A DNA stretch of 64,000 bases, from positions 6,160,850 through 6,224,849 of the forward strand of contig NZ_JACBZA010000001.1 in NCBI RefSeq assembly GCF_013408535.1, written 5' to 3'. The notes under the pieces are model-generated. The model was not told the DNA's origin and ran no database searches. It saw only the letters and a list, made by a program, of their open reading frames with translations. A program made the position numbers and the translations under genes. The stretch comes from Actinopolymorpha cephalotaxi (GTDB lineage Bacteria; Actinomycetota; Actinomycetes; Propionibacteriales; Actinopolymorphaceae). Of this stretch, positions 11,529 to 63,483 are shown piece after piece (position 1 is the first letter of the stretch; each line of letters starts with the position of its first letter).

Positions 11529-11620
11529 GGAGGGCTCGCATAGTGGCCTAGTGCGGCGGTCTTGAAAATCGCTAAGGCAGGACCCACCTGTCTTCATGGG
11601 TTCGAATCCCATGCCCTCCG
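11529..11620 (+). tRNA. tRNA-Ser (anticodon TGA)
   Basis: The acceptor GGAGGGC (11529-11535) pairs with GCCCTCC (11613-11619), with discriminator G at 11620. The anticodon stem GCGGT/ATCGC holds the loop CTTGAAA, giving anticodon TGA. A long variable arm (class II) and a T-arm with loop TTCGAAT complete it. CCA is not encoded. The 3' part is the insertion site for the islands to the right. Confidence 0.93.
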
Positions 11621-11621
11621 C
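11561..11621 (+). repeat. attL: 61-bp att core inside tRNA-Ser 3' part
   Basis: These 61 bases, from the anticodon loop to one base past the discriminator, recur as direct repeats at 20006-20066 and 49578-49638. The copies have only one difference in the core (T to C at 11569). The order of intact tRNA then repeated 3' ends is the classic footprint of site-specific integration at a tRNA gene. Confidence 0.88.
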
Positions 11622-11917
11622 CCTGACCTGGTTCTTAGCCGCTCTGACCTGCGGAAACGTGGTTCTGGGACGTCTTCTGGATCATGCTCGGTTGGGCTCG
11701 GTGTGGCTTGCTCTGTCCGGCCAGATCTCGGCGTTTGCGGGCCATACGCGGGCCAGGATCGGGCGCCTGGTCGTCACTCAATCCGAGTTCTGGATACGCC
11801 AAGTGCGGCTCCGGCGAGGGCGTGGCGGCGTGGCGCTTCATTTTGGCTGGCGGCTCGCTTTCCACCGCCCAAAAGTGAGCTGCGGCCAGGGTAGAAGCCA
11901 GGGGGGTGGGTGCTCGG
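11622..11917. other. Non-coding flank after tRNA-Ser
   Basis: I see no convincing gene in this stretch. Its first 100 bases (CTGACCTGCGGAAACGTGG and what follows) resemble the DNA after the att remnant at 29548 and, more distantly, after the third att repeat at 49638. It may therefore be island-end or old chromosome-flank sequence. Confidence 0.5.
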
Positions 11918-19186: not shown

Positions 19187-19432
19187 TCAGTTGGTGCGGC
19201 CGACGTGGATTACGAGCACGGTGACGGTGTGGTCCTCGATCTCGTAGACGATGCGATAGCGGCCGATCCGCAATCGAAGTGCCGACCCGATCTTGGTGGC
19301 GTATGGCGGGTAGGGGTTGGCGGTGAGCTCGTCGAGCACGGTGAAGACTTCACGCACGCCGGCTCGGTCGTCGTCAAGGTATCCGGCCAGGCTGTTGAGG
19401 GCGTTCTCGCGCCAGTCGAGGGTGTAGGTCAC
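19187..19432 (-). CDS. RelE/ParE-family toxin
   Basis: 81 residues. The family core LRLRIGRYRIVYEIEDHTV holds the R-x-G-x-YR-x-x-Y pattern of RelE/ParE toxins, and length and fold order match. RelE members cut ribosome-bound mRNA and ParE members inhibit gyrase; the Arg-rich core favours the RelE/YoeB-like branch, but the activity is not certain. The gene overlaps the upstream antitoxin by 4 bp, the usual antitoxin-first order. The pair lies 270-600 bp from the attR repeat at 20006 and probably stabilises the island. Confidence 0.88.
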   Translation of the reverse strand: MTYTLDWRENALNSLAGYLDDDRAGVREVFTVLDELTANPYPPYATKIGSALRLRIGRYRIVYEIEDHTVTVLVIHVGRTN

Positions 19433-19716
19433 TCAGTGAACCCGAGCCTGCGCTTGGCCTGCTCGTGCGGGATGGTCCGCAGGGTGCCGTTGGCTTTCTC
19501 GAGTTCGTACTGGGCGATGGCGAGCCGGTCTTCGAGGTCTTCCAGTTCGGCGGCGCTGATGATCGCGGCCGCGGCTTGACCGTGGTCGGTGATGATGACG
19601 CGTTGGCGGGTGTGCGCGGCGCGTCGTACGAGGTTGCCGAAGCGGGTCCGTGCGTCGGTGATGGTGACGACCTCGGCGGAGGCATCGGGCGTCGGCTCGG
19701 GAAGACCTTGGCTCAT
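19429..19716 (-). CDS. Phd/YefM-family antitoxin
   Basis: 95 residues from ATG 19716; GTG 19731 upstream is an alternative that would add five residues. The family signature is VVTITDARTRFGNLVRRAAHTRQRVIITDHGQAAAAIISAAELE, matching the Phd/YefM DNA-binding fold, followed by a C-terminal helix that would neutralise the toxin. It overlaps the toxin gene by 4 bp. A decayed copy of this gene lies beside the third att repeat at about 49.3-49.5 kb. Confidence 0.88.
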   Translation of the reverse strand: MSQGLPEPTPDASAEVVTITDARTRFGNLVRRAAHTRQRVIITDHGQAAAAIISAAELEDLEDRLAIAQYELEKANGTLRTIPHEQAKRRLGFTE

Positions 19717-20005
19717 GGCACAAGTGTGCACTACCTGACACTTGATGCCGGTCCTGACGGCGGCGTGTCAGTGCCGATGGCTGGCACCGCAGCCCGGACG
19801 TCGGTGTCGGCGAGGGCCGGTGCCGGAGCGGTATGCACGGCATCGGCGCGACAGTAGCGGTCTGGCTGGGTCGCAAGGCGTGGGTCGGGCGCCAGTCCGG
19901 TGGTGTCCGGCGGGCTCTGGCTGCTGGGACCTTGGCGCGGCGGATACGCGGCGAAGTGGTGGTCGGGGTGGTGAACGTGCTGGTCGCATGGGCTGTTGGA
20001 GATTG
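19592..20005. repeat. att-proximal module, full copy (paired with 49315-49577)
   Basis: The antitoxin 5' half and the DNA up to the att core share long stretches with 49315-49577. Examples are GGGTGTGCGCGGCGCGTCG, GCGGCGGATACGCGGCGAAG and GTTGGAGATTGCTTGAAAAC. The second copy lacks roughly 150-190 bases in the middle. The two right-hand att ends therefore come from related elements. Confidence 0.75.
19721..19744. promoter_or_regulatory. Inverted repeat, probable antitoxin autoregulation site
   Basis: CAAGTGT (19721-19727) and ACACTTG (19738-19744) form a 7-bp inverted repeat with a 10-bp spacer, centred just upstream of the antitoxin ATG. Phd/YefM antitoxins repress their own promoters by binding such palindromes, so this is a good operator candidate. 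If it is, the promoter is very close to the start codon. Confidence 0.5.
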
Positions 20006-20066
20006 CTTGAAAACCGCTAAGGCAGGACCCACCTGTCTTCATGGGTTCGAATCCCATGCCCTCCGC
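20006..20066 (+). repeat. attR copy 1 of the tRNA-Ser 3' end
   Basis: 61-base direct repeat of 11561-11621 with one mismatch. It contains only the anticodon loop to the 3' end, without acceptor 5' strand or D arm, so it is not a functional tRNA. It marks the right boundary of island A and the left boundary of island B. Confidence 0.88.
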
Positions 20067-20083
20067 TCACCTGTTTACGCAGG

Positions 20084-20862: not shown

Positions 20863-21618
20863 ATGAACGATCAGGCGGCGGTTAATCGATCCGTCCTTGG
20901 GAGGTTGCTCGAGGAGTTGTCGTGGGCCGGAGCGTCCATTCGTGCCTACCGCGACGGCGGCCGCGGATACGAGAACGTCCTCACAGCTGAGGCGCTTGCT
21001 GGTCTGGACTTTCTACCCCGCCAGGCATTCCTTGGCGCTGTGGTGAGCGCAGGGCATGGTGCTGACCGGGCGCGGATGAAATTCGTAGGTGAAGTGGAAG
21101 AGGCGGTTGTCACTCTTCTTCCTGATGAGTTCAAACTCAGACCGGCTGCTCCGACCTACCAGACGCAGATGGTGGTTCAACCCGACGGAATCATGGTGTC
21201 GCCGAACTGCTTCGTGCTCATCGAGGCGAAGCGAATCCGAACCAGTTCCTTCCAGCCCGAGCAACTCGCCCGGGAGTACGTCACCGCCGTACGCGAAGCA
21301 GGAGACAGGACGCCGCTCCTGCTGCTGATCCTGGGTTCTGCGCCCCCAGTGACGGTGAGGGGCCATGGACGGATGGGTATCGAGGAGGCGGTGGCGCTCC
21401 ATCTCGAATCGGTGGTAGACCGCATGGACGGCAGCGACCTCGACCCGGCGATGCTCGTGGACCAGATCTCCGATGTGTTCGCGTGGACGACCTGGCACGA
21501 CGTCGGTCGGGTCGTTGCAGATCAGGAGCGGAGGTTCGCCGCCGATGACCCATCGGTCGTGGCGAGCGTACGCCGACTGGCCGCATCCGTCACTCAGGCT
21601 ATAGAAAGGCACTCCTAG
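20863..21618 (+). CDS. PD-(D/E)XK nuclease-like protein (first of a pair)
   Basis: 251 residues from ATG 20863 with GGGAGGGG at 20851-20858. The core VVQPDGIMVSPNCFVLIEAKR has the order of a PD-(D/E)XK nuclease site: D108 at the end of one strand, then E121-x-K123 at the end of the next, with an upstream Glu in a helix (EVEEAV). After the core, a helix (QPEQLAREYVTAVREAG) follows as in Mrr- or Cas4-like folds. The C-terminal half is helical. No methyltransferase or helicase is adjacent. A second gene with the same motif type follows 62 bp later, so the two are probably one operon. The biochemical activity is inferred from the motif only. Confidence 0.6.
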   Translation: MNDQAAVNRSVLGRLLEELSWAGASIRAYRDGGRGYENVLTAEALAGLDFLPRQAFLGAVVSAGHGADRARMKFVGEVEEAVVTLLPDEFKLRPAAPTYQTQMVVQPDGIMVSPNCFVLIEAKRIRTSSFQPEQLAREYVTAVREAGDRTPLLLLILGSAPPVTVRGHGRMGIEEAVALHLESVVDRMDGSDLDPAMLVDQISDVFAWTTWHDVGRVVADQERRFAADDPSVVASVRRLAASVTQAIERHS

Positions 21619-21680
21619 GGTCCCGCTGGTGGCTGCTGGGTCGGTGCCGCGAGATCAGTGAGCAGGCTGAAGGGGGCGAC

Positions 21681-22310
21681 ATGGCTGAGGATGTGGCGGG
21701 CAAGTTTCTGGCCGCGTGGGAAGTGTTCTCGCGTACCTGCGGACAGTTCATAGCTCCGGAGCCGACCTATCAGGCGTGGTTCGCCCACTACCTCATCTCA
21801 CAGTTCGGCATCGACCGCGTGGCGCGCGAACCCATGGTGAAGAAGCAGTCGTTTGCCGACAGCGCATGGAAGTCCCTCGTCGCCGGCAATCACGTGCGCT
21901 TGGACGCGGTCATCATGAAACGACCGGGTATACATCTTCCGCACTATGCGAGCCGCATCGACCGCTCCCCCGACGGTACCGGCCTGCAGCGACTCCATGG
22001 CATGGCCGTCATCAGCGAGTTGAAGGTCACGGCAACCCAAGGCGACGGCCAAGACCATACAGAGGTTGCCCGCGACGCCTACAAGCTGTCGATGCTCTTG
22101 GACGAACTCGCGAGAAAGCCCGAGGCCTCGGTTCCCTTGGCCTACCTGTGCATCCTCGACAACCACCCCACGAAGAAGTACCGCATCGAATCGCTCAACC
22201 GGCACTTCGACCACGTGCCCCACCATCCCCGGTTGAAGATCATGCTGCACGACGTCCAGCCGATGGAACGACGCCCAACTTTGCCGCAGCCGACTGACAC
22301 GATTTCTTAA
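21681..22310 (+). CDS. PD-(D/E)XK nuclease-like protein (second of a pair)
   Basis: 209 residues from ATG 21681, with GAAGGGGG just upstream. VRLDAVIMKRPG supplies D75, and after an 18-residue Asp/Arg-rich loop MAVISELKVTAT supplies E113-x-K115. The Gln/Asp-rich segment and long helix that follow (HTEVARDAYKLSMLLDELA) also suit the PD-(D/E)XK fold. The protein has no detectable sequence similarity to its neighbour beyond the motif. Both lie in the island segment that also holds the ADP-ribosylglycohydrolase module, which suggests a defence role. I do not recognise a named system. Confidence 0.55.
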   Translation: MAEDVAGKFLAAWEVFSRTCGQFIAPEPTYQAWFAHYLISQFGIDRVAREPMVKKQSFADSAWKSLVAGNHVRLDAVIMKRPGIHLPHYASRIDRSPDGTGLQRLHGMAVISELKVTATQGDGQDHTEVARDAYKLSMLLDELARKPEASVPLAYLCILDNHPTKKYRIESLNRHFDHVPHHPRLKIMLHDVQPMERRPTLPQPTDTIS

Positions 22311-22491: not shown

Positions 22492-23583
22492 TCAACTGAG
22501 GAGGTCGCTGACGTCGACGGCCTGTACGACCTTCGCGATGTCCGGCTCGGAGTCGAGGTCGAGTGGTACGAACTCCTTGCTTGGGCCGGCTTGCTTGACG
22601 GTGAGCAGTTCGCTGGCGTCGCCAACTATCTGGGTGGCGTCGGCTGCGGTCCACCGCACATCGTGGAGGGCTTGGCGGGCGAAGCGGGCTGCCAGGATCG
22701 CTTGGACGCGGGGCCGGCCGTAGGCGTCTAGGCCCTCGTTGCGTAGGGCCACGATGCTCGTGTGGGTCAAGCCTGGTGCGACCGCGAATGCCTCCTTGAC
22801 GGTGGCCAGTACGTATCCGCAGACCATGAGTTTGTAGAAGTCGGCGACTTCGCGCTTGGTGAGCTTCTTCAGGGTCAGGTTTCCTGCGGAGGTCGTGGCT
22901 GGCCGGCGCTCGGGAACAGCGGCGGGTGTGGGCACGAGCACGACGATGGAAGCCTCGGAGCCTGCTACGCCAACGGGGGCGGCGGCAGCGTCGTTGTCCT
23001 CGAACGCCTCCGCCAGCGTGCCAAGCACGATCTCTGGGTCGTTGTTCAGGAGTCGCTGCCACATCCGGTCCAGCTCTGCCTGGTACCGGGCGTGGACGCG
23101 CTGGTTGTTCGCGATCGCTGCCGCTATCTCAGCTCGTGCGGCCGCTTCCGCGGCTGCCTTGGCGTGCGCCCGAGCCTTCCGTTCGAACATCCCGATACCG
23201 GCCAGGGCGGCCTTCCGGTGCCGCGCGTTGATCTCGTCACGGTCAGGCTCAGGCGGCGGTGGCGCGATCGGCGGCTGGGCGACCGGGAAGTCGGGGTGAT
23301 GGAGTTGAAGGATGTTCTGCAGTGCCGCCAGGAGTTCCTTGGCCTGCTCCAGCTTCGCGGCTTGGGCGAGAGCCCGCGATGAGGCCCCGGTTGATGGTGC
23401 TCGACGTGACGGCCGGTTGCCTCCAACGCTGGTGTAGAAGCTGACGGGCCCGGCGCCGGTGGAAAAGCCGGTCCGGCCGGAGCCAAAGTGGACTCGGGCA
23501 GCGCGCGGCCCGACGCTCGTTCGCAGTCCGCGACTGGAGGCGCGTACTCGCACGCCTGGGGCAAGCTTGACGGAGAATCCCAC
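22492..23583 (-). CDS. DUF4236 domain protein with long helical C-terminus
   Basis: 363 residues from GTG 23583. The N-terminal 55 residues (GFSVKLAPGVRVRASSRGLRTS, then GPRAARVHFGSGRTGFSTGAG) match DUF4236, a small beta domain of unknown function common in Gram-positive bacteria. It is followed by a helical Ala/Arg/Glu-rich region (KARAHAKAAAEAAARAEIAAA), a Val/Pro linker and a C-terminal domain with LKKLTKREVADFYKLMVCGYVLA. No transmembrane segment or signal is seen. The gene faces the nuclease pair tail to tail with about 180 bp between stops. Confidence 0.7.
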   Translation of the reverse strand: MGFSVKLAPGVRVRASSRGLRTSVGPRAARVHFGSGRTGFSTGAGPVSFYTSVGGNRPSRRAPSTGASSRALAQAAKLEQAKELLAALQNILQLHHPDFPVAQPPIAPPPPEPDRDEINARHRKAALAGIGMFERKARAHAKAAAEAAARAEIAAAIANNQRVHARYQAELDRMWQRLLNNDPEIVLGTLAEAFEDNDAAAAPVGVAGSEASIVVLVPTPAAVPERRPATTSAGNLTLKKLTKREVADFYKLMVCGYVLATVKEAFAVAPGLTHTSIVALRNEGLDAYGRPRVQAILAARFARQALHDVRWTAADATQIVGDASELLTVKQAGPSKEFVPLDLDSEPDIAKVVQAVDVSDLLS

Positions 23584-24317
23584 GACCGATCATGGTATGG
23601 CGATCAGTACCTTGCGGCTGCGGTTTGAGTTGATGAGGCAGGATCCGCCCCATCCGCCAACTTATTGGCGTCGGACTGCTGGCGGAAGAGCCGATCCGCC
23701 TGGTGGCTCAAAGTTCTCGCACCCGGTCGAGCCTCGTCGCGGCCCGCCGAACAGACCGCTGTCGCAGCCCGTACCTTCTGCTGGCGGTAGAGCCGGCAGT
23801 CGAAGCATGGCGCTCGTACAGGCAGATTTCGCGTGAAGATCACTTCCGAGTGTCTGTGGTCGCTAGAATCTGCCTGTCCGACCCGTTGGTTCACAGATCT
23901 GAGCTGCGGTGTTTTCCCCGTCGCCGTATGCCAGCCGTCCCCCCGGGTGAATCAGCGGGTCGGAGTCAAGACGACCCTCGAGGTCATGGACGCAGGGCCC
24001 GTCCACCGCTCCTGCCCTTCCGTATGGATTTTCGGCGGTTGTTGCCCGCGGTACGCGCTGCTCGGCAACGGCTCTGCGCCTGGTCAGCGGCTAACTCAGA
24101 ACTCCACTAGCTTCGTCGGTGATCGCCCCGGTTGGTCCTCGGATGGCTCCGGCAAGGGGAGGGTTAGGGCCCGTGTCGATGGCCATGAGGGGGGCCGGGG
24201 CGGTCACCTTCACGCCGGGAGCGCGGTGGCCCGCGGCCTGTCCCGTACTCAGCGGCCAGTTCGCCGGCCGCTGATGATCGACCGTCGTTGGCTCGCCGTC
24301 AGCATCGTCGCTGTGCT
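23584..24317. other. Gene-poor stretch before the IS5-type element
   Basis: Short open frames occur on both strands but none has a plausible start, domain or codon pattern. No inverted repeats or att-like sequence stand out. Confidence 0.5.
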
Positions 24318-25270
24318 AGGGCGTGTCTCCCGAATGTCGGCCTTCCGGGCTGCGATGGTTGACCGATGTCGCGTTCAGCCGTGCTGTCCGATGCCCAGTG
24401 GGAGCTGATCGAGCCCTTGATGCCGTCCTCGGACGGCAAGCGGGGCAACAGGTTTCGGGACCACCGCAGGATCGTCGAGGGTGTCGTGTACCGGTTCCGG
24501 ACCGGCATCGCCTGGCGTGACCTGCCGGAGCGGTTCGGGCCGTGGCAGACGGTCTGGAAGCGGCATCGCCGGTTCTGCGGCGACGGCACTTGGGACCGGA
24601 TCCACACCGCGCTGCTCGCGCACGCCGACGCGGCCGGTGACATCGACTGGTCGGTCAGCGTGGACTCGACGATCAACCGCGCGCACCAGCACGGCACCAA
24701 CCTGACCAGGCCCGCCACTGGCACAGGGGGAACTGTCGAATCACACGAATCTGCGGATCGAGCCGGCTGACCACGCCATCGGCCGCTCCCGCGGAGGCCT
24801 GAGCACGAAGATTCACCACTTGTGCGACGGCAAGGGCCGCCCGCTCGTGCTGCTGCTCGGGCCCGGCCAGGCCAACGACTCGCCGATGTTCGCGAACCTG
24901 CTCAAGGCGATTCGCGTACCCAGGCAGGGTCGAGGGCGCCCGCGGACCCGACCCGACGCGGTCCTGGCGGACAAGGCGTACTCCTCCCGCGGCAACCGGG
25001 CGCTGCTGCGCTCCCGTGGCATCACCGCCGTGATCGCCGAACCGTCCGACCAGACAGGAAACCGCAAACGCAAGGGCTCCAAGGGTGGCCGACCACCGAC
25101 GTTCGACGCCGAGGCGTACAAGGGGCGCAACGTCATCGAGCGTTCTTTCAACGTCCTGAAGCAGTGGCGAGGCTTGGCCACCAGGTACGACAAGCTCGCC
25201 CTGACCTACCGCGGCGGCGTCGTACTCGGCGCGATCATCACCTGGCTACGCGAACTGGGAGACACGCCCT
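24318..25270 (+). mobile_element. IS5-family (IS427-group-like) insertion sequence, copy 1
   Basis: A 953-bp element with perfect terminal inverted repeats AGGGCGTGTCTCCC and GGGAGACACGCCCT. The junctions read CT-AGGG and CCCT-AG, so insertion was at CTAG, or TA within it. It encodes a transposase in two overlapping frames. A second copy of identical length lies inverted at 62485-63437; its predicted proteins differ by only two residues, showing recent activity. Confidence 0.92.
24366..24770 (+). CDS. IS5-family transposase, N-terminal frame (copy 1)
   Basis: 134 residues that start MSRSAVLSDAQWELIEPLMP, the typical helical N-terminal domain of IS5/IS427 transposases. DWSVSVDSTINRAHQHGTN carries the first catalytic Asp of the DDE triad. 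The frame drifts after PATGTGG and ends at 24770. The rest of the enzyme is in the overlapping second frame, reached by a +1 (or -2) change at the GGGGG run 24726-24730. Confidence 0.92.
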   Translation: MSRSAVLSDAQWELIEPLMPSSDGKRGNRFRDHRRIVEGVVYRFRTGIAWRDLPERFGPWQTVWKRHRRFCGDGTWDRIHTALLAHADAAGDIDWSVSVDSTINRAHQHGTNLTRPATGTGGTVESHESADRAG

Positions 25271-25272
25271 AG
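24727..25272 (+). CDS. IS5-family transposase, C-terminal frame (copy 1)
   Basis: The frame opens before 24727 and reads GELSNHTNLRIEPADHAIGR, then GGLSTKIHHLCDGKGRPL. DAVLADKAYSSRGNR carries the second catalytic Asp and the YKGRNVIERSFNVLKQWR segment the catalytic Glu. The full enzyme needs a ribosomal frame change from the N-terminal frame, as in many IS427-group elements. The other copy has the same arrangement, so the frame break is a feature of the element and not a mutation. The stop TAG overlaps the CTAG target. Confidence 0.88.
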   Translation, partial: GELSNHTNLRIEPADHAIGRSRGGLSTKIHHLCDGKGRPLVLLLGPGQANDSPMFANLLKAIRVPRQGRGRPRTRPDAVLADKAYSSRGNRALLRSRGITAVIAEPSDQTGNRKRKGSKGGRPPTFDAEAYKGRNVIERSFNVLKQWRGLATRYDKLALTYRGGVVLGAIITWLRELGDTP

Positions 25273-26258
25273 TCGGGCTTCTGCTGGTGTTGGTGAAGCC
25301 GCTGTTCGCACTGGTCCAGCAGGCGTTCACGCTGGTCGAGGAGGCGTTCGCGTTCGTCGAAGAGGCGCCGGCGGTCTTGGGCCTGGTCCTCGCGTTCGTC
25401 GGCGATCCGGTCCCGCTCGTCGGCTATCTGGTCTCGTCGGTCGCCGTCGGCCTCGCGTTGGGCGGCGATCCAGTCTCGGTAGTCGGCCGCGGCGTCTCGT
25501 TCCGCAGCGGCCCTTTCATGCTCGTCCGGGCCGAGGGTGCCTGCCTGGTCGATGAGTCCGCGGCGGGTGTCGGCGGCCAGTTGGCGGAGGAGGGCTGCAA
25601 AGGTCCGGTTGGCCATTGCCCGGACCCTTTCGGCTGCGGCGAGGTGGCGGCAGCGGTACGCCTCGTCGGCTTCACTGGCCTGATCGGTGCCGTCATGGGC
25701 CGCGCGGTGCCGCAGCTGCGCGGCGAAGCTCCGCTTGTTCGCGGCCTGCTCGTGCCACTCCTCGGTGAGTACAGCCTTGGGTCCACTTCGGGTCATCTGA
25801 CGCTTTGCTGTGCGCTGGGCTAGCGCCAAGGGTAAATCTGCGCTGTGCCTGCCGGAGCTTGCGAGTTCGGGTGCTAGACGCCTGCCGCAGACCGAGCAAG
25901 TGATCGGCCCCTGGGCTTGTACGGGCGTAGGGGTGGGCTGAATCGGGGTGGGACTTTTCTGCGCTGTACGTCGTCGGGCTTCACGGGCCTCGCGTAGTTC
26001 GCGAGTCACCTTCGCCAGCTGCCGGAGGCGCTCCTGCTCCACCTGGCGCCAGTAGTCCTGGGCCGCGGCCGAGTGGTCGGCTGCCTGGCGCTCAGACTCG
26101 ATGTGGCGGGGCGTGGTCCAGACCGTCCAGCCGTCCCGGCGCCGGTGCGCGATTACCGAGCCCGTGAGCATCCACCCGCAGAACTCGGTCAGGGACACTT
26201 CGTGGTTGAGTGGTTCCCACCTTCGGTTCCAGTGCACTAGCCGGTAGGCGATCGCCAA
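25269..26258 (-). CDS. Hypothetical coiled-coil protein with a CxxC motif
   Basis: 329 residues from ATG 26258. The N-terminus (WEPLNHEVSLTEFCGWMLTG) looks folded, followed by a charged helix with REAREARRR and a single CSVCGRR. The last 100 residues are a long Asp/Glu/Arg coiled coil with near-repeats ERDRIADERE and ERERLLDQRERLLDQ. Its TAG stop lies inside the CTAG target of the IS5-type element. Since the target itself supplies the stop, the insertion did not shorten the protein. I do not recognise a family; it sits in the defence-like part of the island. Confidence 0.6.
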   Translation of the reverse strand: MAIAYRLVHWNRRWEPLNHEVSLTEFCGWMLTGSVIAHRRRDGWTVWTTPRHIESERQAADHSAAAQDYWRQVEQERLRQLAKVTRELREAREARRRTAQKSPTPIQPTPTPVQAQGPITCSVCGRRLAPELASSGRHSADLPLALAQRTAKRQMTRSGPKAVLTEEWHEQAANKRSFAAQLRHRAAHDGTDQASEADEAYRCRHLAAAERVRAMANRTFAALLRQLAADTRRGLIDQAGTLGPDEHERAAAERDAAADYRDWIAAQREADGDRRDQIADERDRIADEREDQAQDRRRLFDERERLLDQRERLLDQCEQRLHQHQQKPD

Positions 26259-26582: not shown

Positions 26583-26972
26583 TTACAGCTCTTCGACCAC
26601 CTGCCGTAGTTCCTGGTTGAGCGTCCAGCCGTGCGTGTCGAGCAGCTCACGGAGATCGGCCAACGCTGTACGCGCCGGTCCGCCGGTGGTCAGGGTCGTA
26701 TAGCGGGCCGCGACCGCTGGAGTGCGGCTCTGACCGGCGACGCAGTGCAGCAGCACCACTCGGCCCTCCCGGCGCAACTCCAACACCATCCTGGCGGCCT
26801 GATCAACGACGAAGTGCGGCTGGGTGTTGGCACCGGGTTGGTCGACCAGCCACACCGACACCCGGTCGCCGGCTGCCACGGTGGCGAAGTCGTCACAGCC
26901 GACACGGCACAGGGACACCACCGCGCTGGCGCCCACCGCCGAGGGGTCGGTGTGCAGGTTGCCGAGGATCAC
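26583..26972 (-). CDS. Dual-specificity/tyrosine phosphatase-like protein
   Basis: 129 residues from GTG 26972, whose GTGA overlaps the stop of the ADP-ribosylglycohydrolase gene. The signature is LLHCVAGQSRTPAVAARY, the HC-x5-R loop with nucleophile C77 and phosphate-binding R83. A candidate general-acid Asp is in WLVDQPG (D44). The size and the ILGNLHTDPSA start are those of minimal rhodanese/phosphatase-superfamily proteins. Coupling to an ADP-ribosylglycohydrolase suggests it acts on the same product, perhaps removing a phosphate from ADP-ribose or a nucleotide instead of from protein. A longer open frame upstream is only the neighbour's shadow. Confidence 0.85.
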   Translation of the reverse strand: MILGNLHTDPSAVGASAVVSLCRVGCDDFATVAAGDRVSVWLVDQPGANTQPHFVVDQAARMVLELRREGRVVLLHCVAGQSRTPAVAARYTTLTTGGPARTALADLRELLDTHGWTLNQELRQVVEEL

Positions 26973-28063
26973 CCCGGAGCGTGCGGATGCGCCAGCATCA
27001 ATGGCGCAACCGCAGGTAGCGTCGCGCGGGCGCAGCCCGGCCAACCGCTGACATCGGTCCGGCCACCTTGGGCCGTCAACACTGCCAGGCGAATCAGGTC
27101 CGCCGCGCGAACCATCGGCCAGCCATGGATGATCCGCTGCCAGGCCAGGGGCACTGCGGAGCAACCCCACCGGGCGCCCAGCAGAGCTCCGGCGATCGCC
27201 GCCACCGTGTCGGTGTCGTCGCCGACGCGCACCGCCGCCGCCAAAGCGCGTTCCAGATGCTGACAGGAGAAACTGCCCTGACCCGGATCGTGGTCCGGGA
27301 CGTCGGTGTGGGTGATCGCAGACCAGGCGGCCTGCAAGGCGGGGACCACGAACCCGTTGGGACGGAAGTGCTCCGGCGGCTTGTTCTCCGCCTCGGTAAG
27401 CCAGGTCGACCACTGGTCACGGCGCCCCGCAGGCAGTAGGGCCAAGCCCTCCCGGACCCCGTCGAAGGTCCCGTCGAGAACCGCCCGGCGGATTGCCGCG
27501 CACCACAACACACACGCCTCGGCAGCCAAGTGATCGTGATGGGTCAGCTCGCTGACCGCGCGGGCGGCTACCGCGAGCGCCTCCGGCTCGCCGAGATAGG
27601 CCAGCGCGACCGGTGCGGTGCGCATCAACGATCCGTTACCCGCGCTGCGGCCGGTACGCCGATGCAACCCTGCAGCTGCGTCGCGCATCGCCACGGCGAC
27701 GCCCGTGCCGCTCACCTGGGACACGGCGCCGAGGACCTGCCCGGTCTGAGCCCCGATGTCGCTGGCGCCCTCCCGTCGCCACCGAAGGAAGTTGCGGGCG
27801 ATGCTGTCGAGGGAGTCGCTGCTGCGCAGATCCGCCCCCGTGGCTGATACCTCGGCGATACACATCGCCATTTGGGTGTCGTCGCTGTACTCCCCCGGCG
27901 CGTACGGGCCGAGGCCGCCACCGCGCATCGCCGGCTGCTCGCTGACCGCAAGCGGTGGCTTGAACTCGTACGGCACGCCCAGCGCGTCCCCACACGCTGC
28001 CCCGAGAAGAACACCTGCAGCCCGATCGGTCTGGACCGCGGTCAGCGGCACAGTCACGGTCAT
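26969..28063 (-). CDS. ADP-ribosylglycohydrolase family protein
   Basis: 364 residues from ATG 28063. The family motifs are all present: GAACGDALGVPYEF near residue 21, YSDDTQMAM (D61, D62, T63; Mg2+ site), GNGSLMRTAPVAL, and VGDDTDTVAAIAGALLGARWG near the C-terminus (second Mg2+ site). It should remove ADP-ribose from protein, nucleic acid or a small molecule. It is translationally coupled to the phosphatase gene and divergent from an ARPP-1-like gene. This three-part association was noted computationally as a likely conflict system, and it gives the ARPP family its name (ARG and rhodanese-phosphatase-associated protein). Confidence 0.9.
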   Translation of the reverse strand: MTVTVPLTAVQTDRAAGVLLGAACGDALGVPYEFKPPLAVSEQPAMRGGGLGPYAPGEYSDDTQMAMCIAEVSATGADLRSSDSLDSIARNFLRWRREGASDIGAQTGQVLGAVSQVSGTGVAVAMRDAAAGLHRRTGRSAGNGSLMRTAPVALAYLGEPEALAVAARAVSELTHHDHLAAEACVLWCAAIRRAVLDGTFDGVREGLALLPAGRRDQWSTWLTEAENKPPEHFRPNGFVVPALQAAWSAITHTDVPDHDPGQGSFSCQHLERALAAAVRVGDDTDTVAAIAGALLGARWGCSAVPLAWQRIIHGWPMVRAADLIRLAVLTAQGGRTDVSGWPGCARATLPAVAPLMLAHPHAPG

Positions 28064-28546
28064 CAGCCCCTCACCGATCTACGTCAGCTCGACGACCGAC
28101 CATACTGCGACAGAGGGCTGGAGCATTAGCACTTCGGCCAGATGGCCGCGCACTGGATCCAGCATCGCGCTGCCGTCACGCTGATCTGGTAGACGCCGTC
28201 ATTCGCTCTGCAATGCGCCGGGCCTCGACAGCGACGATCTGAATGTCACCGGCTGATGACTACAAGTGTTCGCGAGTTAGGCCGTGCTCCCGTACCACGG
28301 CCTTGCCGCCTGAAGGAGTCAGCATGCACATCTCCGCATATCTGGATGTCGACGTGTCGCGCTCGAGACCGAAAACTGGCGGCCCGAACTCGTCGGACTG
28401 CCCGGACCTGCAGCGCTAGCCTCTGGTGCAAGTCGACAAGTGCCTACCGTGGATGTGGTACTCGACCGCAGCGGCTCCGTGCTCGGCGACCGCCTCGACA
28501 GCCCGAGATCCGCCCCGCCACTTGTTCTCCAGACCGGAGGTCGCCG
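28064..28546. promoter_or_regulatory. Divergent intergenic region of the ARG / ARPP-1 module
   Basis: 483 bases separate the two divergent gene starts and should hold both promoters. No gene is convincing here. GGAGG at 28536-28540 is the ribosome binding site of the ARPP-1-like gene. I see no strong palindrome. Confidence 0.5.
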
Positions 28547-29452
28547 ATGAACCTGTTGCCTGCCCTGCACCTGGGCGCCCCGACCCAGGCCGGGCCCCTA
28601 ACCGTGTTTCCGGTGTGGACTGACGCCCCGGTCACACCATTGGCATATCGAACCTCGCTGCCCGCACACGCCCGGGTTGACGAGCTGGACGTACCGGTCG
28701 TGGGACAGTTGCGGGTCACCAATGCGGGCAGTACTCCGGTACTCCTGCTGGACGGCGGGCTACTCGACGGGGGATGGCAGCACCGCGTGCTGACTCGTAG
28801 CGTACTGGTCGACGCACAGGCACAGCAGGTCGTGGAGGTGGCCTGCGTCGAGCAGAACCGCTGGGCGGGCGGCCGTGATCAGCGGCTGGCGCGGCATCGA
28901 GCACCGCTCGCGGTGCGGGGAGCGCTGCGCGGGCTGGGCGCGGAGAGCTCCGGCCTCCACAGGGCGAACGTCGACCAGGGTGATGTCTGGCAGCGGGTGA
29001 GCCGGTACGAACGTGAACTGGGCGCCACCGCAACGTCGTCGTTGGTGGAGTTGCAGAGCAGACTCGCGGCAGAGTCCGCTGCCGCCCTCAACGAGACCCG
29101 ACCCCTGTACGGGCAGCGGGGGGTCCTCATCGGCGCCGCCGGCCACCCGGTTCTTCTCGAGGTCTTTGACGACCCACAGACCCTGACCGAACAGTGGGAC
29201 ATGCTGCTGTCTGCGGCCGCGCTGGACGCCCGCCTTGCGCCATCCCAGCCCACACCAGGACGCCGCGCCCGGGAGTTCGTCAAACGGCTTGTCGCCACAC
29301 CGCTCCGCACGGCCAACATGCCCGGCAAAGCAGTCGTTGCCATAGAGGGTGAAGACGCCAAGCTGATCTCAGCACGGGGAATCGCCGTCGAAAGCCGACT
29401 ACTGCACCTCGGAGTGCTCAATGCCGCGCACCAATTCATCCTCGCCGCCTGA
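28547..29452 (+). CDS. ARPP-1-like (ARG and rhodanese-phosphatase-associated) protein
   Basis: 301 residues from ATG 28547 with GGAGG six bases upstream. The sequence LTVFPVWTDAP, then QLRVTNAGSTPVLLLDGGLLDGGWQHRVLTRSVLV and VEQNRWAGG, follows the ARPP-1 pattern of a beta-rich N-terminal domain with a conserved Glu-Gln-x-Arg-Trp segment. A helical region (SLVELQSRLAAESAAAL) and a second beta domain (GVLIGAAGHPVLLEVFDDP) follow. No signal or membrane segment is seen. The function of the family is unknown; its defining context is an ADP-ribosylglycohydrolase plus a rhodanese/phosphatase protein, exactly what lies divergently here. The family name is from recognition, not a search. Confidence 0.72.
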   Translation: MNLLPALHLGAPTQAGPLTVFPVWTDAPVTPLAYRTSLPAHARVDELDVPVVGQLRVTNAGSTPVLLLDGGLLDGGWQHRVLTRSVLVDAQAQQVVEVACVEQNRWAGGRDQRLARHRAPLAVRGALRGLGAESSGLHRANVDQGDVWQRVSRYERELGATATSSLVELQSRLAAESAAALNETRPLYGQRGVLIGAAGHPVLLEVFDDPQTLTEQWDMLLSAAALDARLAPSQPTPGRRAREFVKRLVATPLRTANMPGKAVVAIEGEDAKLISARGIAVESRLLHLGVLNAAHQFILAA

Positions 29453-29547: not shown

Positions 29548-29610
29548 CCATGCCCCCTCCGCCCTGACCTGGTCCTTAGCTGTCCTGACCTGCGGAAACG
29601 TGGTCCGGCG
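29548..29610 (+). repeat. Remnant of the tRNA-Ser end plus its downstream flank
   Basis: CCATGCCC-CTCCGCCCTGACC and the following bases match 11608-11655, the last 13 bases of tRNA-Ser and the DNA after it, including CTGACCTGCGGAAACGTGG, with few changes. Only the extreme tRNA 3' end remains. It is probably an old integration junction inside island B. Confidence 0.65.
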
Positions 29611-30716: not shown

Positions 30717-31916
30717 CTACTGCGGCGGCTGCACCCTCGCCTGGGACAGCACGAAGCCCGCGGCACGCTCAGCTGGCGGTCGATTCCCGGCCGCCACACC
30801 AACACTGCTGGAATTGCGGACGACGAGCTCGGGGCTGATCATCACGCGATGTGCGGGTCGTCGAGGTCCCTCGTTCAGGCGGGCGACGAGGAGTTCGACT
30901 GCCAGGCGGCCGACGTGCTGCTTCGGCGGCCGTACCGCGGTGACTGCTGGCTGGCCGAGGTGGGCGACCTCGTCATCGTAGGCGACCACCGCCAACTCGT
31001 CAGGCACACGCACACCCACGTCGAGGCAGTGCTGGACCAGCGCGAGAGCCGGGGGGTCGGGGTGCACCAGGAGCGCCCGCGTCGAGGATGCACTGCACTG
31101 TGCCAGCACATCGTCGAGCAGCGCGTCGCGACCGTCTTCGGTGAAGGCGTTCGCCGGGCCCGTCACCTGCTGGTCGGGGTCGAGGCCGCAGGCTCTCAGT
31201 TGGTCGCGCCACCCGCGTTGCACGTGCTTGGTGGTCGGGCTTCCCGCCGAAGCGAACAGACCGACGCGCCGGTGCCCTTGGGCGTACAGATGCTGGACGG
31301 CCATCGCGGCACCGGCGGCGTGGTCGGAGACCGCCCACTCCAACCTGCCGGGAGGCATCGTGCCGGGCGCCCTGCGCTCGGCCATGACCACCGGCATGGG
31401 GAGCTCTTGCACCCAGTTCAGCAGGTCGACGGACTGAGCGACATCCATCACCGGCGCCACGATGAGCCCATGGACGCCCGGCGTCTCGGCGAGGATCCTG
31501 ATCTGCTTCCGATCGTCAGCGGGGGAACCTGAGGAACCGCGCAGGATGAGTTCAGCCCTCGTGTCCGACGCTGCGGCCCGGGCTCCGGCGATGATCGAGG
31601 GCCAGTAGTAGCTGAACGAAGGCACCACCATGCCAAAGGTGAAGCGTGCGCCGGAACCACCGCGGGAGGCGCCTTGACGTCGTGGCTCGCTGGCGTCCCG
31701 GCCGAATGGCGAGCGGGTGCCCAGCAGAGTCGCCCCTCCGTGCACCCGAGCCACCAGCCCACGCTTGGCCAGCGCGTTGACGTCACGTCGGATCGTGGGC
31801 TCGGAGACCTTGAGGCGGGCAGCCGCCTCGCTGACCACGATGGAGCCCTCGGTCCTGAGCAACTGCAGCAACAGTTCCTGTCGCTGCTGCAGAAAGGACG
31901 GGGAACGCTCGGACAC
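30717..31916 (-). CDS. DeoR-type HTH / LacI-type sensor hybrid transcription regulator
   Basis: 399 residues. The N-terminal 60 residues are a DeoR helix-turn-helix (LQQRQELLLQLLRTEGSIVV, then AARLKVSEPTIRRDVNALAKRGL and RVHGGA). The remainder is a LacI/periplasmic-binding-protein-type sugar sensor (FTFGMVVPSFSYYWPSIIAGA, HLYAQGHRRVGLFAS, AVVAYDDEVA). Such hybrids repress catabolic genes until a sugar binds. GTG 31916 is chosen because GGAGG at 31921-31925 precedes it by five bases; GTG 31931 is upstream. It is divergent from a broken 2-hydroxyacid dehydrogenase gene, with repeated GATCA half-sites between them. Confidence 0.85.
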   Translation of the reverse strand: MSERSPSFLQQRQELLLQLLRTEGSIVVSEAAARLKVSEPTIRRDVNALAKRGLVARVHGGATLLGTRSPFGRDASEPRRQGASRGGSGARFTFGMVVPSFSYYWPSIIAGARAAASDTRAELILRGSSGSPADDRKQIRILAETPGVHGLIVAPVMDVAQSVDLLNWVQELPMPVVMAERRAPGTMPPGRLEWAVSDHAAGAAMAVQHLYAQGHRRVGLFASAGSPTTKHVQRGWRDQLRACGLDPDQQVTGPANAFTEDGRDALLDDVLAQCSASSTRALLVHPDPPALALVQHCLDVGVRVPDELAVVAYDDEVAHLGQPAVTAVRPPKQHVGRLAVELLVARLNEGPRRPAHRVMISPELVVRNSSSVGVAAGNRPPAERAAGFVLSQARVQPPQ

Positions 31917-31934
31917 GGGGACCTCCGTCACGTG

Positions 31935-49244: not shown

Positions 49245-49314
49245 GCCGCTGCACGACCTACGCCAAGCCCGGTTCGACATTGGCGACTCGCAGCCGCCGT
49301 CACGTCACGGACGA

Positions 49315-49500
49315 CCGCGACGATGACTCGTTGCCGGGTGTGCGCGGCGCGTCGCACGAGGCTGCCGAAACCGCTTCTCGCATCGGTGATGGCGACAACA
49401 TCGGCGGGTCAATGGGTGTCGGCTCGGGCAGCGGTTCGACTGAGTCGCCTGGCGGCACGGGCGTCAGTCCGGTGGTGGCCGGCGGGCTCTGGTTGCTCGG
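49315..49500 (-). pseudogene. Decayed Phd/YefM antitoxin copy beside the third att repeat
   Basis: The minus strand here is a diverged, shortened copy of the antitoxin start and promoter at 19592-19800. It shares GGGTGTGCGCGGCGCGTCG and the order of surrounding blocks, but has no intact frame and no toxin gene. It belonged to a second element of the same kind. Confidence 0.6.
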
Positions 49501-49577
49501 TTCATGGCGCGGCGGATACGCGGCGAAGTGTTGGCCGGGGCGGCGAACCTGCTGGTCAGACGGGTCGTTGGAGATTG
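49315..49577. repeat. att-proximal module, shortened copy (paired with 19592-20005)
   Basis: Same block order as the full copy, ending GTTGGAGATTGCTTGAAAAC directly before the att core, but missing the middle part that contains the toxin-antitoxin promoter. Confidence 0.7.
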
Positions 49578-49638
49578 CTTGAAAACCGCTAAGGCAGGAC
49601 CCACCTGTCTTCATGGGTTCGAATCCCATGCCCTCCGC
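49578..49638 (+). repeat. attR copy 2 of the tRNA-Ser 3' end
   Basis: 61-base direct repeat of 11561-11621, identical in core to the copy at 20006-20066. It lacks the 5' half of the tRNA. It marks the outer right boundary of the island stack. Confidence 0.88.
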
Positions 49639-49769
49639 TCCACCTGCAAAGCTGCCCTGACCTGCGGAGACACCGTTCCGACCTGGCTGTTGATCATATG
49701 CTGCGGGTCAGTGTGGCTCGTGTGTGCTTGGCCAAAGTTCGGCGGCAAGCCGCGCTGATCTCGACCGTG

Positions 49770-51000: not shown

Positions 51001-51368
51001 GAGGAACCTCAGGGTGATGCCAGACTGCGGTCCCACGCCACGAACTCGGCTGTTTATCAGCGCGGGGTGCAGCCCGATGGGGCTCGTCAGGTCGAGTGTT
51101 GACGTCCCTCCGTGAGTAGTGGAACAACTCCGACTACTCAGGTGTGGATTAGCTGAGCGGCCTCAGTCAGGACTACAACGAGAGACGACCGGTAGAACGG
51201 CGGCTCTTCGCTCGCCTTTCCCGTGTTTGACCTGGTGCTGTCCTGGGTGAAGGGTCGCTGAGTGGCTGCAACGACTTGTCGGGAAATGGGCTCGTCTGGC
51301 GTCGCGGGAGCGCATGCTTGGTTGACCAACGCGCGTCCTGCCACGCGCCGTCGTCCGTAGGAGACCTC
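51001..51368. other. Intergenic region upstream of the first FG-GAP gene
   Basis: The last 95 bases (from about 51274) are nearly repeated at 54266-54360 before the second FG-GAP gene, including GAGCGCATGCTTGGTTGA. The shared promoter region was duplicated with the gene. No gene is visible. Confidence 0.55.
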
Positions 51369-52979
51369 ATGCGTGCGTTTCCTGCCGTAGGGCTGCTCGC
51401 CCTCATCGCTTCCCTCACGTTCGGGGCTACGTCTTCGGCTGTAGGTGGAGGAAGAGCCGACGCGGCGGTGAGGACGTGTGCCCCCGACTTGCCGAACCAG
51501 GACATGAACGGTGACGGCAGCCAACCTCCCAACATCTGGCCTGAGCCAGACTACGGAGACGCCGTCGTCGGCGCACCAGGAGAAAACCACGCCGCGGGCG
51601 CGATCCATGTCTTCCACGGCTCCTACATGGGACTCGCCGTCGGGCCCAACGACGAGGGCGACAACGAGGACCAGTGGATCCGCCAGGACACGCCCGGAGT
51701 TGCCGGCGGGTCGGAGCCGAACGACCGGTTCGGGGCGGCCGTCGTCACCGGCGACTTCAACGGTGACCACTGCGCCGACGCCGCGGTCGGTGTCCCCGGC
51801 GAGGACGGCAATGCGGGCGCGGTCAACGTGTTCTACGGTTTCAACGGCGATGGGCTTCTCGGCACCACCGGGAACAAGATGCTCCTCGAAGGGACCGCCT
51901 CAATCCCAGGACCGCGGCATACCGGGGAGCGTTTCGGTTCGGGGCTGGCGATCGGTGACCTCAACGACGACGGCATCACCGACCTGGCTATCGGCGCACC
52001 CGGTGAGGGCGGCGCCGCGGGTGCGGTGTTCGTCGTCTACGGCAACGCCGCCGGGCTGAACGCGGGACCGACTCATGCGGTGCGGCTGGCCCAGTCGTCG
52101 CCGCTCATCCCGGGGGCATCGGAGGCCTCAGACCGGTTCGGTGCCAGCCTGACCGTGGGCGACTTCGCCGGTGATGGGATCGACGACCTCGCGATCGGAG
52201 TCCCCGGGGAGGACTCCAACTCCGGCAGTGTGGCCGTCGTACCGGGCGGCCGCGGTGCTGCACTCACCGGTGCCGGGTCGAAGGTCTGGTCCCAGAACAG
52301 CGCCGGCATCATCGGAGCGGCCGAACCCAACGACCGCTTCGGCACCGCCCTCGGTGCTGGCGCTGTCACCCCTGACGGCCGTGAGGACCTGGTGGTCGGG
52401 GTTCCGGGCGAGAACGGCAGCGGGGCGATCGCGATCCTGTTCGGCTCCGCGACCGGACTCACATCCGCGAGGGATGAGTTCTGGTCCCAGAACACCGCTG
52501 GAGTCACCGGAACTGCCGAGGCCGGAGACCAATTCGGCGTCACCGTTGTGGTCGGGGACATCGGCCGCACGGCCGCCGAGGAAGTGGTCGTCGGTGTCCC
52601 CCGTGATCGCGTAAGCGGCGTGCCGGCGGCAGGGGCGATTCAAATCTTCTGGGGCCAAACTACTGGACCCAGTGCCGCCGGGGACGCCGAGGAGCTCCTC
52701 AGCCAGGACACTTCGTCGTTCGGCGAGTGGAAAATGCCGGGAGTCGCAGAGACCGGCGACAAGTTCGGCGCCTCCCTCGCCATGGTGAATATGGGTGGGC
52801 CTGGAGCGGCGGAACTTCTCATCGGGGCACCAGGCGAGACAGTCGCCGGCGTCCCCCACGCCGGCGTCATCCAGACCGGCTTCGGCCAGGCCGTCTCAAC
52901 CCGCGGGTTCGATGTCGAAGGGCCCCTCGAACCAGACGGCGCCTTCGGCGCCGCGCTTGGCAACCCAGGCCGGCCATAA
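51369..52979 (+). CDS. Secreted FG-GAP (integrin-alpha-like) repeat protein, paralogue 1
   Basis: 536 residues from ATG 51369 with TAGGAGA upstream. A Sec signal (MRAFPAVGLLALIASLTFGA) is followed by seven FG-GAP blades, each with an RFGA-type turn (NDRFGAAVVTGDF, SDRFGASLTVGDF, NDRFGTALGAG, GDQFGVTVVVGD, GDKFGASLAMVN). Between them lie VGVPGE loops with Asp-rich calcium sites such as DLNDDGITDLAIG. This gives a seven-bladed calcium-binding propeller on the cell surface or secreted. No enzymatic domain is present. It is a recent duplicate of the gene at 54361. Confidence 0.85.
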   Translation: MRAFPAVGLLALIASLTFGATSSAVGGGRADAAVRTCAPDLPNQDMNGDGSQPPNIWPEPDYGDAVVGAPGENHAAGAIHVFHGSYMGLAVGPNDEGDNEDQWIRQDTPGVAGGSEPNDRFGAAVVTGDFNGDHCADAAVGVPGEDGNAGAVNVFYGFNGDGLLGTTGNKMLLEGTASIPGPRHTGERFGSGLAIGDLNDDGITDLAIGAPGEGGAAGAVFVVYGNAAGLNAGPTHAVRLAQSSPLIPGASEASDRFGASLTVGDFAGDGIDDLAIGVPGEDSNSGSVAVVPGGRGAALTGAGSKVWSQNSAGIIGAAEPNDRFGTALGAGAVTPDGREDLVVGVPGENGSGAIAILFGSATGLTSARDEFWSQNTAGVTGTAEAGDQFGVTVVVGDIGRTAAEEVVVGVPRDRVSGVPAAGAIQIFWGQTTGPSAAGDAEELLSQDTSSFGEWKMPGVAETGDKFGASLAMVNMGGPGAAELLIGAPGETVAGVPHAGVIQTGFGQAVSTRGFDVEGPLEPDGAFGAALGNPGRP

Positions 52980-53039
52980 CTCACGCCGCATGACGGTTCG
53001 CCTGGTGGGTCGGCTCTCGCATCCGCCCTGGTGCACGGC

Positions 53040-53420
53040 ATCGTCACGCCGCGGCGGAGCAACCAGGATCGTAGAACTGGTGGCTCGGAGCATTGCGTGG
53101 AGGACGTTGATGCGTCGTCTGGCCAGAGCGATGACAGCCTGCTGGTGGGCCCTTCCCTCCTTGCGTTACGGGCCTAGAAGGTCTTGCTCGCGGGATCACT
53201 GGTCAAGGCGCAGAACGCGGACTGATGGAAGATGCGCTTTAGTCTGCGGTTGCCGCCAGCCGCCCGGCGCAGGTAGCGCACCTTCCCTGACCTCAATTGC
53301 CGGCGCCAGGCCGGCCGCGGCGGCCATGTGGTCACCGTTGGGGAAGCGGTAGCAGGGCTGATGCTGCCCGACCGCACTGATCGCGGTAGAGGGGCGCCAT
53401 CCGGCTGTGGCGCCAACCCG
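53040..53420 (-). pseudogene. IS110-family transposase, C-terminal remnant
   Basis: Two frames carry the conserved end of IS110 transposases. The first reads LRSGKVRYLRRAAGGNRRLK, RIFHQSAFCALTSDPASKTF, then TAG at 53174. After a shift the second reads KEGRAHQQAVIALARRRINV, LHAMLRA. The catalytic N-terminal DEDD domain is gone. It is unrelated in sequence to the intact IS110 at 58031. Confidence 0.75.
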
Positions 53421-53423
53421 TCG

Positions 53424-54053
53424 TCAGACGCGCCTGACGGGTTCTGACTCTGTGATGCCGGCAGGTTCGACGTGCGTCAGGCAGGCGGCGTCGTCCCAGA
53501 TGTAGACAACCTCGTCGAGGAGCACGCCGTGGTCGTCGAAGTGTCGCTGGCCGAGCAGGGTGCCGCCGATTCCTTCGTAGAAGGCGCGGGCGCGTGCGTT
53601 GACGGCGAGTACCCCGATCGACAGTCGCCGTCGTCCACGCGAAACGAGGAACGCGGCCAGGTCTGCGACCAACGCCCGCCCGATCCCACAGCGTTGTCGG
53701 CTGGTGTCCACGTACAGGGCGTAGCACTCGCCGGTCGGGTGGGCGGCACGGTTCGCGTCGTCGAAGGGCCAGTCTGCCGGCGGCCCGCCCATGGCGATGC
53801 CGACGATCTCGCCGGCCGTGTCCTCGGCGACGCAGACGTACTCTTGCGGGTCCTCGGCCTCGGCGATCTCACGCAACGTCCGTTCCCACCCCCGTGCAGA
53901 CGACTCGTACGTGCGCTTCAGCAGAAGGTGCTCGGGGACCTGACCGCGGTGGGCGGTGCGGAACGTGTCGACGAACACCCGACTCATCGCCAGCACGTCT
54001 TCCAACCTCGCTGCTCGGACCCTGAACCCGCGGCGCTCGCCCGTCTGTCCCAT
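53424..54053 (-). CDS. GNAT-family N-acetyltransferase
   Basis: 209 residues from ATG 54053. The GNAT core is complete: FRVRAARLEDVLAMSRVF, a beta-bulge strand in ECYALYVDTSRQ, the acetyl-CoA loop RQRCGIGRALVADL (Q/R-x-x-G-x-G/A), then LSIGVLAVNARARAFYEGIG. It should acetylate a small-molecule amine or a protein N-terminus, with the target unknown. An open frame continues 66 codons upstream, but the family starts here. Confidence 0.9.
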   Translation of the reverse strand: MGQTGERRGFRVRAARLEDVLAMSRVFVDTFRTAHRGQVPEHLLLKRTYESSARGWERTLREIAEAEDPQEYVCVAEDTAGEIVGIAMGGPPADWPFDDANRAAHPTGECYALYVDTSRQRCGIGRALVADLAAFLVSRGRRRLSIGVLAVNARARAFYEGIGGTLLGQRHFDDHGVLLDEVVYIWDDAACLTHVEPAGITESEPVRRV

Positions 54054-54360
54054 CCGGTCGTCCGTCACAAGATCACATGATGGTCCGCAGATGCTCAGGT
54101 CGTCATCGAAACTGATCAACTCCCGGACCGCGACGCTCAGGTTGTCATGCCATGCATCTGTCGCGGCGCGTGCCGCCTGACGCCAGCGGGCTCGGCGGCG
54201 GTTGTGAACACAATCACCTGGGGCGGCTTTAGGCCACCGGAGACTCTGCAAACGGTGCTCACCTACTTATGGCGAAATGGGTTCATCGTGGAGGGAGGGA
54301 GCGCATGCTTGGTTGATCACGTGCGTCCTTCCACGCGCCCTTGGCCGGAGGGGAGATCTG

Positions 54361-62453: not shown

Positions 62454-62482
62454 ACGCGGGCCGCTGGTCGGGGTTCTGCGGA

Positions 62483-63437: not shown

Positions 63438-63483
63438 AGCTGGCCTTATGCGAATCGATGCCGATGACGACGTCGTGGTCCAT
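63436..63483 (-). pseudogene. IS110-family transposase, N-terminal scrap
   Basis: ATG 63483 reads MDHDVVIGIDSHKAS and stops at the CTAG next to IS5 copy 2. This is the start of an IS110-type transposase (first catalytic Asp in GIDSHK). The remainder does not reappear on the other side of the IS5 copy, so the element was already truncated or later deleted. Confidence 0.7.

Follow-up and report, generated by a model that had tools for sequence, protein, structure and literature searches.

What does an ADP-ribosylglycohydrolase (ARG) do beside a small cysteine phosphatase and a protein of the ARPP-1 family, and is the group that they form still whole? The three genes lie together in a 64,000-nucleotide stretch of the genome of Actinopolymorpha cephalotaxi (contig NZ_JACBZA010000001.1), which we call the window and to which all coordinates refer. 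A first-pass annotation, made from the letters alone, had taken them for a compact conflict module. The window holds a copy of a published ARG-centred system for ADP-ribose processing, and we think it probable that the published general mechanism applies to it. The module is apparently worn, with no Nudix regulator nearby, a probable stub of a vWA gene, and the ARG and phosphatase in two frames. Its core features are:

26969-28063, minus strand: ADP-ribosylglycohydrolase, 364 residues (PF03747 in Pfam, E 1.1e-54)
26583-26972, minus strand: cysteine phosphatase domain of the dual-specificity phosphatase (DSP) type, 129 residues, GTG start (PF00782, E 8.8e-8)
26969-26972, minus strand: GTGA overlap of the ARG stop with the start codon (GTG) of the phosphatase, where a GGGG run ends and at the fusion junction of relatives
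28547-29452, plus strand: ARPP-1 (DUF6569), 301 residues (PF20208 in Pfam, E 2.2e-55)

Three genes with intact catalytic residues

The three family assignments made at first reading were borne out by Pfam, including the profile search for ARPP-1 that had been proposed with them. Both metal motifs read in the ARG are present and intact (SDDT from residue 60, GDDTD from residue 281). Its best match among PDB sequences is the solved ADP-ribosylglycohydrolase 2cwc (E 3.4e-25), and DraG and ARH3 entries are matched too. The window ARG thus shares family and metal motifs with the DraG, Tri1 and ARH3 hydrolases. Unlike DraG and Tri1, however, it scores far under the NCBIfam equivalog cut-offs (105 bits against 490 for Tri1, 97 against 337 for DraG), and no ADP-ribosyltransferase partner was found when 20 window proteins (8+2+10, a subset of the window open reading frames) were run against Pfam.

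The minimal HC-x5-R motif that had been noted in the phosphatase reads HCVAGQSR from residue 76, so that its cysteine is C77, as had been stated. C77, R83 and D44 do not vary in alignment A4, whose 16 rows include the window copy, and the nearest PDB sequences are dual-specificity phosphatases, from E 1.6e-7.

In ARPP-1, residues C100, Q78, Q144 and Q190 are invariant in the 27-row alignment A3, which excluded loci L015, L025, L033, L034 and some further ones; C100 is intact in the window copy. AlphaFold2 gave a confident model (pLDDT 92.6, pTM 0.92). Foldseek against PDB returned nothing at E 0.001 for this model, the best hit having E 0.024 and TM 0.11, which does not imply a novel fold. A likeness to a Streptomyces galactose-oxidase homologue (VIA-align Z 5.1, 67 residues) was set aside, being of a level that is common by chance according to the tool. 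By sequence, ARPP-1 matched nothing in PDB up to E 10, and nothing in NCBIfam, PADLOC or PHROGs.

A gene set of a known kind, recurrent among relatives

An ARG-centred set of genes was proposed by comparative genomics, in section 3.8 of PMC9503650, as a host answer to viral ADP-ribosylation. As described in that section, a phosphatase of the rhodanese superfamily or of another type, fused or adjacent, occurs in a little over 55% of the neighbourhoods, and a regulator of the Nudix or WYL kind in over 42%. Further parts named there are chaperones, including vWA proteins predicted to bind peptides, nucleases, and ARPP proteins with conserved Cys and Gln; of these parts the Nudix regulator and the ARPP are optional, and a chaperone is frequent. 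The origin of the ARPP name and the conflict hypothesis, both given in the first-pass annotation, are in print. Because its combination of genes matches this system, the window set is of a kind already known. Common to both are an ARG, a phosphatase of the rhodanese/DSP superfamily, an ARPP, nuclease-like neighbours, and, in relatives of the window copy, vWA and Nudix genes. The published system also has no coupled ADP-ribosyltransferase or sirtuin, and neither turned up among the 20 window proteins scanned. The window copy differs in having ARG and phosphatase in separate frames, a divergent ARPP-1 and a probable remnant in place of the vWA part, and in lacking a nearby Nudix regulator.

Scanning genome_contigs with an alignment of ARPP-1 sequences yielded 30 loci (L005-L034), all actinobacterial by their record labels; the alignment itself was built from actinobacterial rows, and only sequences that share its short patterns are within reach of the scan. 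Several of the metagenome-assembled genomes are labelled Bifidobacterium breve, a label that we doubt. Some loci are not independent: L013 is the same record as L003, L014 is almost identical to L015, and the pairs L018/L034 and L028/L033 each come from one genome. Only a partial ARPP-1 is present in L033 and L034; all of L005-L034 are kept in counts of 30.

In 19/30 loci ARPP-1 has an ARG no more than 3 kb away, on the same strand and downstream in 18 of them, and divergent in L024. Sixteen of these 19 ARG loci also have the phosphatase (not found in L018, L019 and L032). The neighbourhood expected to recur in other genomes therefore does so. Spacing varies in single cases, with a vWA gene some 4 kb before the core genes in L010, and an ARG-phosphatase about 6.5 kb before ARPP-1 in L017. 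In L024, a 405-residue protein with no Pfam match is encoded between the divergent ARPP-1 and ARG-phosphatase genes (L024:6526-7743), and could be a further accessory part.

Two unbroken examples are worth describing. In L064, from the same order as the host, an NrtR-like gene adjoins ARPP-1, which is followed by a vWA gene and then by the ARG-phosphatase. ARPP-1 matches were also found in two plasmid records of Pimelobacter simplex. On one of them, pA-N39 (NZ_CP097985.1), the order is ARPP-1 (DUF6569), then a hypothetical gene, then an ARG-phosphatase fusion of 502 residues (one open frame, with matches to both domains), and then a gene for a RecB-like nuclease; within the 14.7 kb examined, no NrtR-like or vWA match was found at 1e-3. 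Both resemble the window in holding ARPP-1 and ARG-phosphatase in one cluster, but their genes are co-directional and unbroken.

The gap before ARPP-1 probably contains the start of a decayed vWA gene

The ARG and ARPP-1 genes diverge from a gap of 483 bp (28064-28546), described at first as a shared regulatory region. Its length and the divergence of ARPP-1 are as stated then. Rather than being merely regulatory sequence, however, it probably contains the start of a dead vWA gene, to judge from the following feature.

28324-28550, plus strand: probable decayed start of a vWA gene, made of a start-like piece (28324-28356) and a vWA-like piece (28356-28514) in different frames

The start-like piece reads MHISAYLDVDV, and the second-frame piece bears the vWA metal-site motif VVLDRSGSV; the vWA-like frame terminates at 28550, overlapping the ARPP-1 start. 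As queries we took eight vWA open reading frames of ARPP-1 loci, chosen by their metal-site motif. Two of them, from L004 and L010, matched the remnant when scoring was not adjusted for composition, at about 1e-6 against the gap by itself and at 0.001-0.002 against the whole window. Conversely, the 64-residue reading of the remnant, used as a query, retrieved vWA-type genes in 3/116 other relatives (5e-5 to 8e-4), and the gene retrieved in L036 is a VWA gene by Pfam (8.6e-18). A vWA profile gave the remnant 1.7e-7, versus 0.16 for the next among 1323 window segments.

Several points weigh against this interpretation of the gap. The choice of queries was not wholly blind, because the motif by which they were chosen had already been seen in the remnant. 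Under default scoring the same two queries, the best of the eight, gave 0.009 and 0.039 in the whole window, the remnant remaining the top spot for both; vWA queries run with this scoring matched nothing in the window stretch at E 1e-3 or 1e-4. The profile is partly circular, since three of its six rows (L036-L038) came from the remnant search and L064 repeats L004. Lastly, Pfam found no match in the 64 residues of the remnant. Since L064 keeps a vWA gene between ARPP-1 and ARG-phosphatase, the remnant is most likely the chaperone part of the published system in decay. A scan of 27900-28700 gave no promoter-like and no terminator-like site, a result that tells us nothing in an organism of this type.

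ARG and phosphatase form a single polypeptide in most relatives

In the window, ARG and phosphatase overlap by 4 bp, as had been reported, in the form of GTGA. The ARG is matched in 23 rows and the phosphatase as well in 19 of these, of which 17 carry the two domains in a single uninterrupted polypeptide; the copies of L064 and of plasmid pA-N39 are likewise fused. Fusion is thus the rule within the ARPP-1-linked set sampled. The two unfused rows are the window copy and L005, a metagenome-assembled genome with a shift inside the ARG. Because the two domains share one frame in 17/19 rows, the overlap is less likely to mark a designed gene pair than a broken junction or a base-calling artefact.

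The window junction is best read, from this alignment, as an ancestral fusion that was split here or as a base-calling error. The ARG frame stops exactly at the junction residues, ending in AHPHAPG where L022 and L023 read HPHDPGVLLGG, and the phosphatase frame carries straight on as VILGN, with no gap. The switch of frame sits within GGGG, yielding the GTGA stop-start. An error of base calling or assembly in this run, in which case the gene would be fused here too, is a serious possibility that we hold at somewhat under even chances; it agrees with the exactness of the junction and with the metagenomic origin of the only other exception, and is compatible with our best explanation. On the other side, the assembly consists of one contig with 99.69% completeness, the overlap has the ordinary form of a GTGA stop-start, and the adjoining vWA remnant suggests genuine decay in this region.

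If the two frames are real, the phosphatase is perhaps still made through stop-start coupling at GTGA. A functional split, in which slippage by -1 on the GGG preceding TGA, or re-initiation at GTGA, would yield free ARG and a phosphatase-linked product, in substitution for the lost Nudix control, seems to us very improbable.

The regulator of relatives is missing near the module

A divergent Nudix gene adjoins ARPP-1 in 16/30 surveyed loci. The protein from L005 matches NrtR_WHD (2e-9) and NUDIX (2.2e-7) above the cut-offs, and that from L007 matches both below them. Eight NrtR-like queries searched against the whole window gave nothing better than E 0.07, and the one NrtR_WHD match in the genome, at 1.43 Mb, is far from the module. 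At 30717-31931 lies a DeoR/LacI-type regulator, which by Pfam consists of HTH_DeoR and Peripla_BP_3; it has a WYL match in PADLOC (5e-6) over the helix-turn-helix part only (residues 16-59), no dedicated WYL search having been made.

ADP-ribose processing, salvage or relic

In the mechanism that we favour, which mostly follows section 3.8 of PMC9503650, a phage ADP-ribosyltransferase would modify host macromolecules, and the ARG domain would remove that ADP-ribose. The DSP-type phosphatase, fused to the ARG in most relatives, would take phosphate off the released product or off a further breakdown product, and ARPP-1 would capture or convert the sugar part by means of its invariant cysteine. 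In relatives that have it, the NrtR-like Nudix regulator would sense the freed ADP-ribose and turn the genes on; NrtR is cited as an ADP-ribose sensor in PMC9503650. In some relatives the vWA protein would handle modified proteins. The identities of the genes, their intact catalytic residues, the recurring neighbourhood and the fusion in relatives are observed, and the vWA remnant has good support; the substrates, the anti-phage role and expression without the regulator are what we infer.

The spread of the family suits a mobile conflict module, being patchy (ARPP-1 in 14/394 genomes of the class, own genome counted) and including a plasmid copy beside a RecB-like nuclease gene. Among relatives, ARPP-1 is present in 4/117, again with the own genome counted, and in 0/5 other members of the genus. 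These same facts bear on the main rival, NAD+/ADP-ribose salvage. NrtR-like regulators are known from NAD metabolism, and the common regulator of the ARPP-1 loci is NrtR-like (Nudix plus NrtR_WHD); under such control, the genes would recycle ADP-ribose and phosphates of the cell itself as housekeeping, with no part in conflict. Some ARPP-1 genes accompany a phosphatase without ARG, as salvage would allow. However, very patchy spread, absence from the five other genus members, a plasmid location next to nuclease genes, and decay and rearrangement in this genome speak against a housekeeping pathway, and we consider it unlikely.

We find it about equally doubtful that the window copy is simply dead, left unexpressed without regulator and vWA protein, its three frames being young pseudogenes. 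The Nudix gene is missing, the vWA gene is reduced to a stub, the ARG-phosphatase frame is shifted and an insertion sequence (IS) copy lies close by; moreover, the ARG is on the strand opposite to ARPP-1, as in just 1/19 other loci (L024). Yet ARG, phosphatase and ARPP-1 are full length with invariant catalytic residues, and GC at their third positions is 0.77-0.84.

A number of results count against ADP-ribose processing in the published manner. The window copy may be too decayed to function. Its phosphatase scores 32.5 bits with PF00782, one bit short of the Pfam cut-off of 33.5. PADLOC-DB holds no model fitting any of the three proteins, and two extra ARG genes are present elsewhere in the genome, in which ARPP-1 is single copy. 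In 6/30 loci (L006, L007, L008, L012, L016, L017) a vWA gene comes after ARPP-1, with no adjoining ARG. In 3/30 (L014, L015, L020) ARPP-1 is followed by a DUF4236 gene and a different DSP phosphatase, ARG not being found, and the same layout without ARG recurs in L052, L053 and L055 from the search of class genomes. Neither arrangement would be expected under a strict ADP-ribose model. Nor is there a direct link to phages, since ARPP-1 was found neither in IMG/VR (22 pattern stretches, zero confirmed) nor in phage records. Finally, no experimental test of the ARG/ARPP system was found in the open-access literature, a scope outside which most subscription papers and the whole of bioRxiv fall.

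The DUF4236 layout is a third ARPP-1 arrangement. The window itself has a DUF4236-like open reading frame at 22492-23583, under the Pfam cut-off.

Genomic setting

The location in a tRNA island with nuclease-like genes had been offered as support for a defence role. The relevant features are:

11529-11622, plus strand: tRNA-Ser(TGA), source of the repeated tail
20006-20066, plus strand: att-like 61-nt copy of the tRNA-Ser 3' part (98%), left of the module
29555-29604, plus strand: 50-nt copy (92%) of the tRNA-Ser gene end and 3' flank, about 100 bp past ARPP-1
49578-49638, plus strand: att-like 61-nt copy of the tRNA-Ser 3' part (98%), right of the module
20863-22310, plus strand: two open reading frames with PD-(D/E)xK-like motifs seen by eye, probable passengers

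The tRNA-tail repeats are real. A query of the tRNA plus its flank matches 2 to 13 places per genome in all six genomes of the genus, which suggests an integration hot spot. As support for defence, however, the location is weak, because none of the genome's 11 Phage_integrase matches falls in the window, the genes tested at 42-49.3 kb are non-defence genes, and the nuclease-like open reading frames have neither a Pfam match nor relatives in the other loci. The four genes in question encode transport, ROK, GH28 and GH43 proteins, so the region is no defence island throughout. The first nuclease-like frame has a weak PADLOC match to PDC-M15A (4.7e-4). As members of the module we rejected both of these frames, the DUF4236-like one, and those at 25269 and 29670, since the other loci searched gave no relative for any of them at E 0.01.

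The stretches that precede the two 61-nt copies are also repeated (19565-20068 and 49293-49640, 77-91% identical), as if two related elements ended there. Genes for a ParE-like toxin (1.3e-6) and a Phd/YefM-like antitoxin (5.5e-13) stand at 19187-19731, directly before the copy at 20006. An IS4/5-type element is present in two inverted, 100% identical copies (24315-25274 and 62481-63440), the first between the nuclease-like frames and the module. At 51269-55982, adjoining long open reading frames share many stretches about 3 kb apart (75-87% identity for the long pairs), a pattern suggestive of tandem duplication.

Implications

The make-up of the module is already known, and the kind would be ordinary to specialists. 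What is added is the rule of fusion, a probable relic of the vWA gene, and relatives in which the set is unbroken. Because it is worn, the window copy is ill suited as a starting point for experiments. Unbroken compact examples are now at hand in Nocardioides, Pseudonocardia and a Pimelobacter plasmid, and the vWA part is tied to the ARG/ARPP-1 cluster both by a relative (L064) and by the probable relic. Together with the fusion rule, these make it easier to choose constructs for testing the system.

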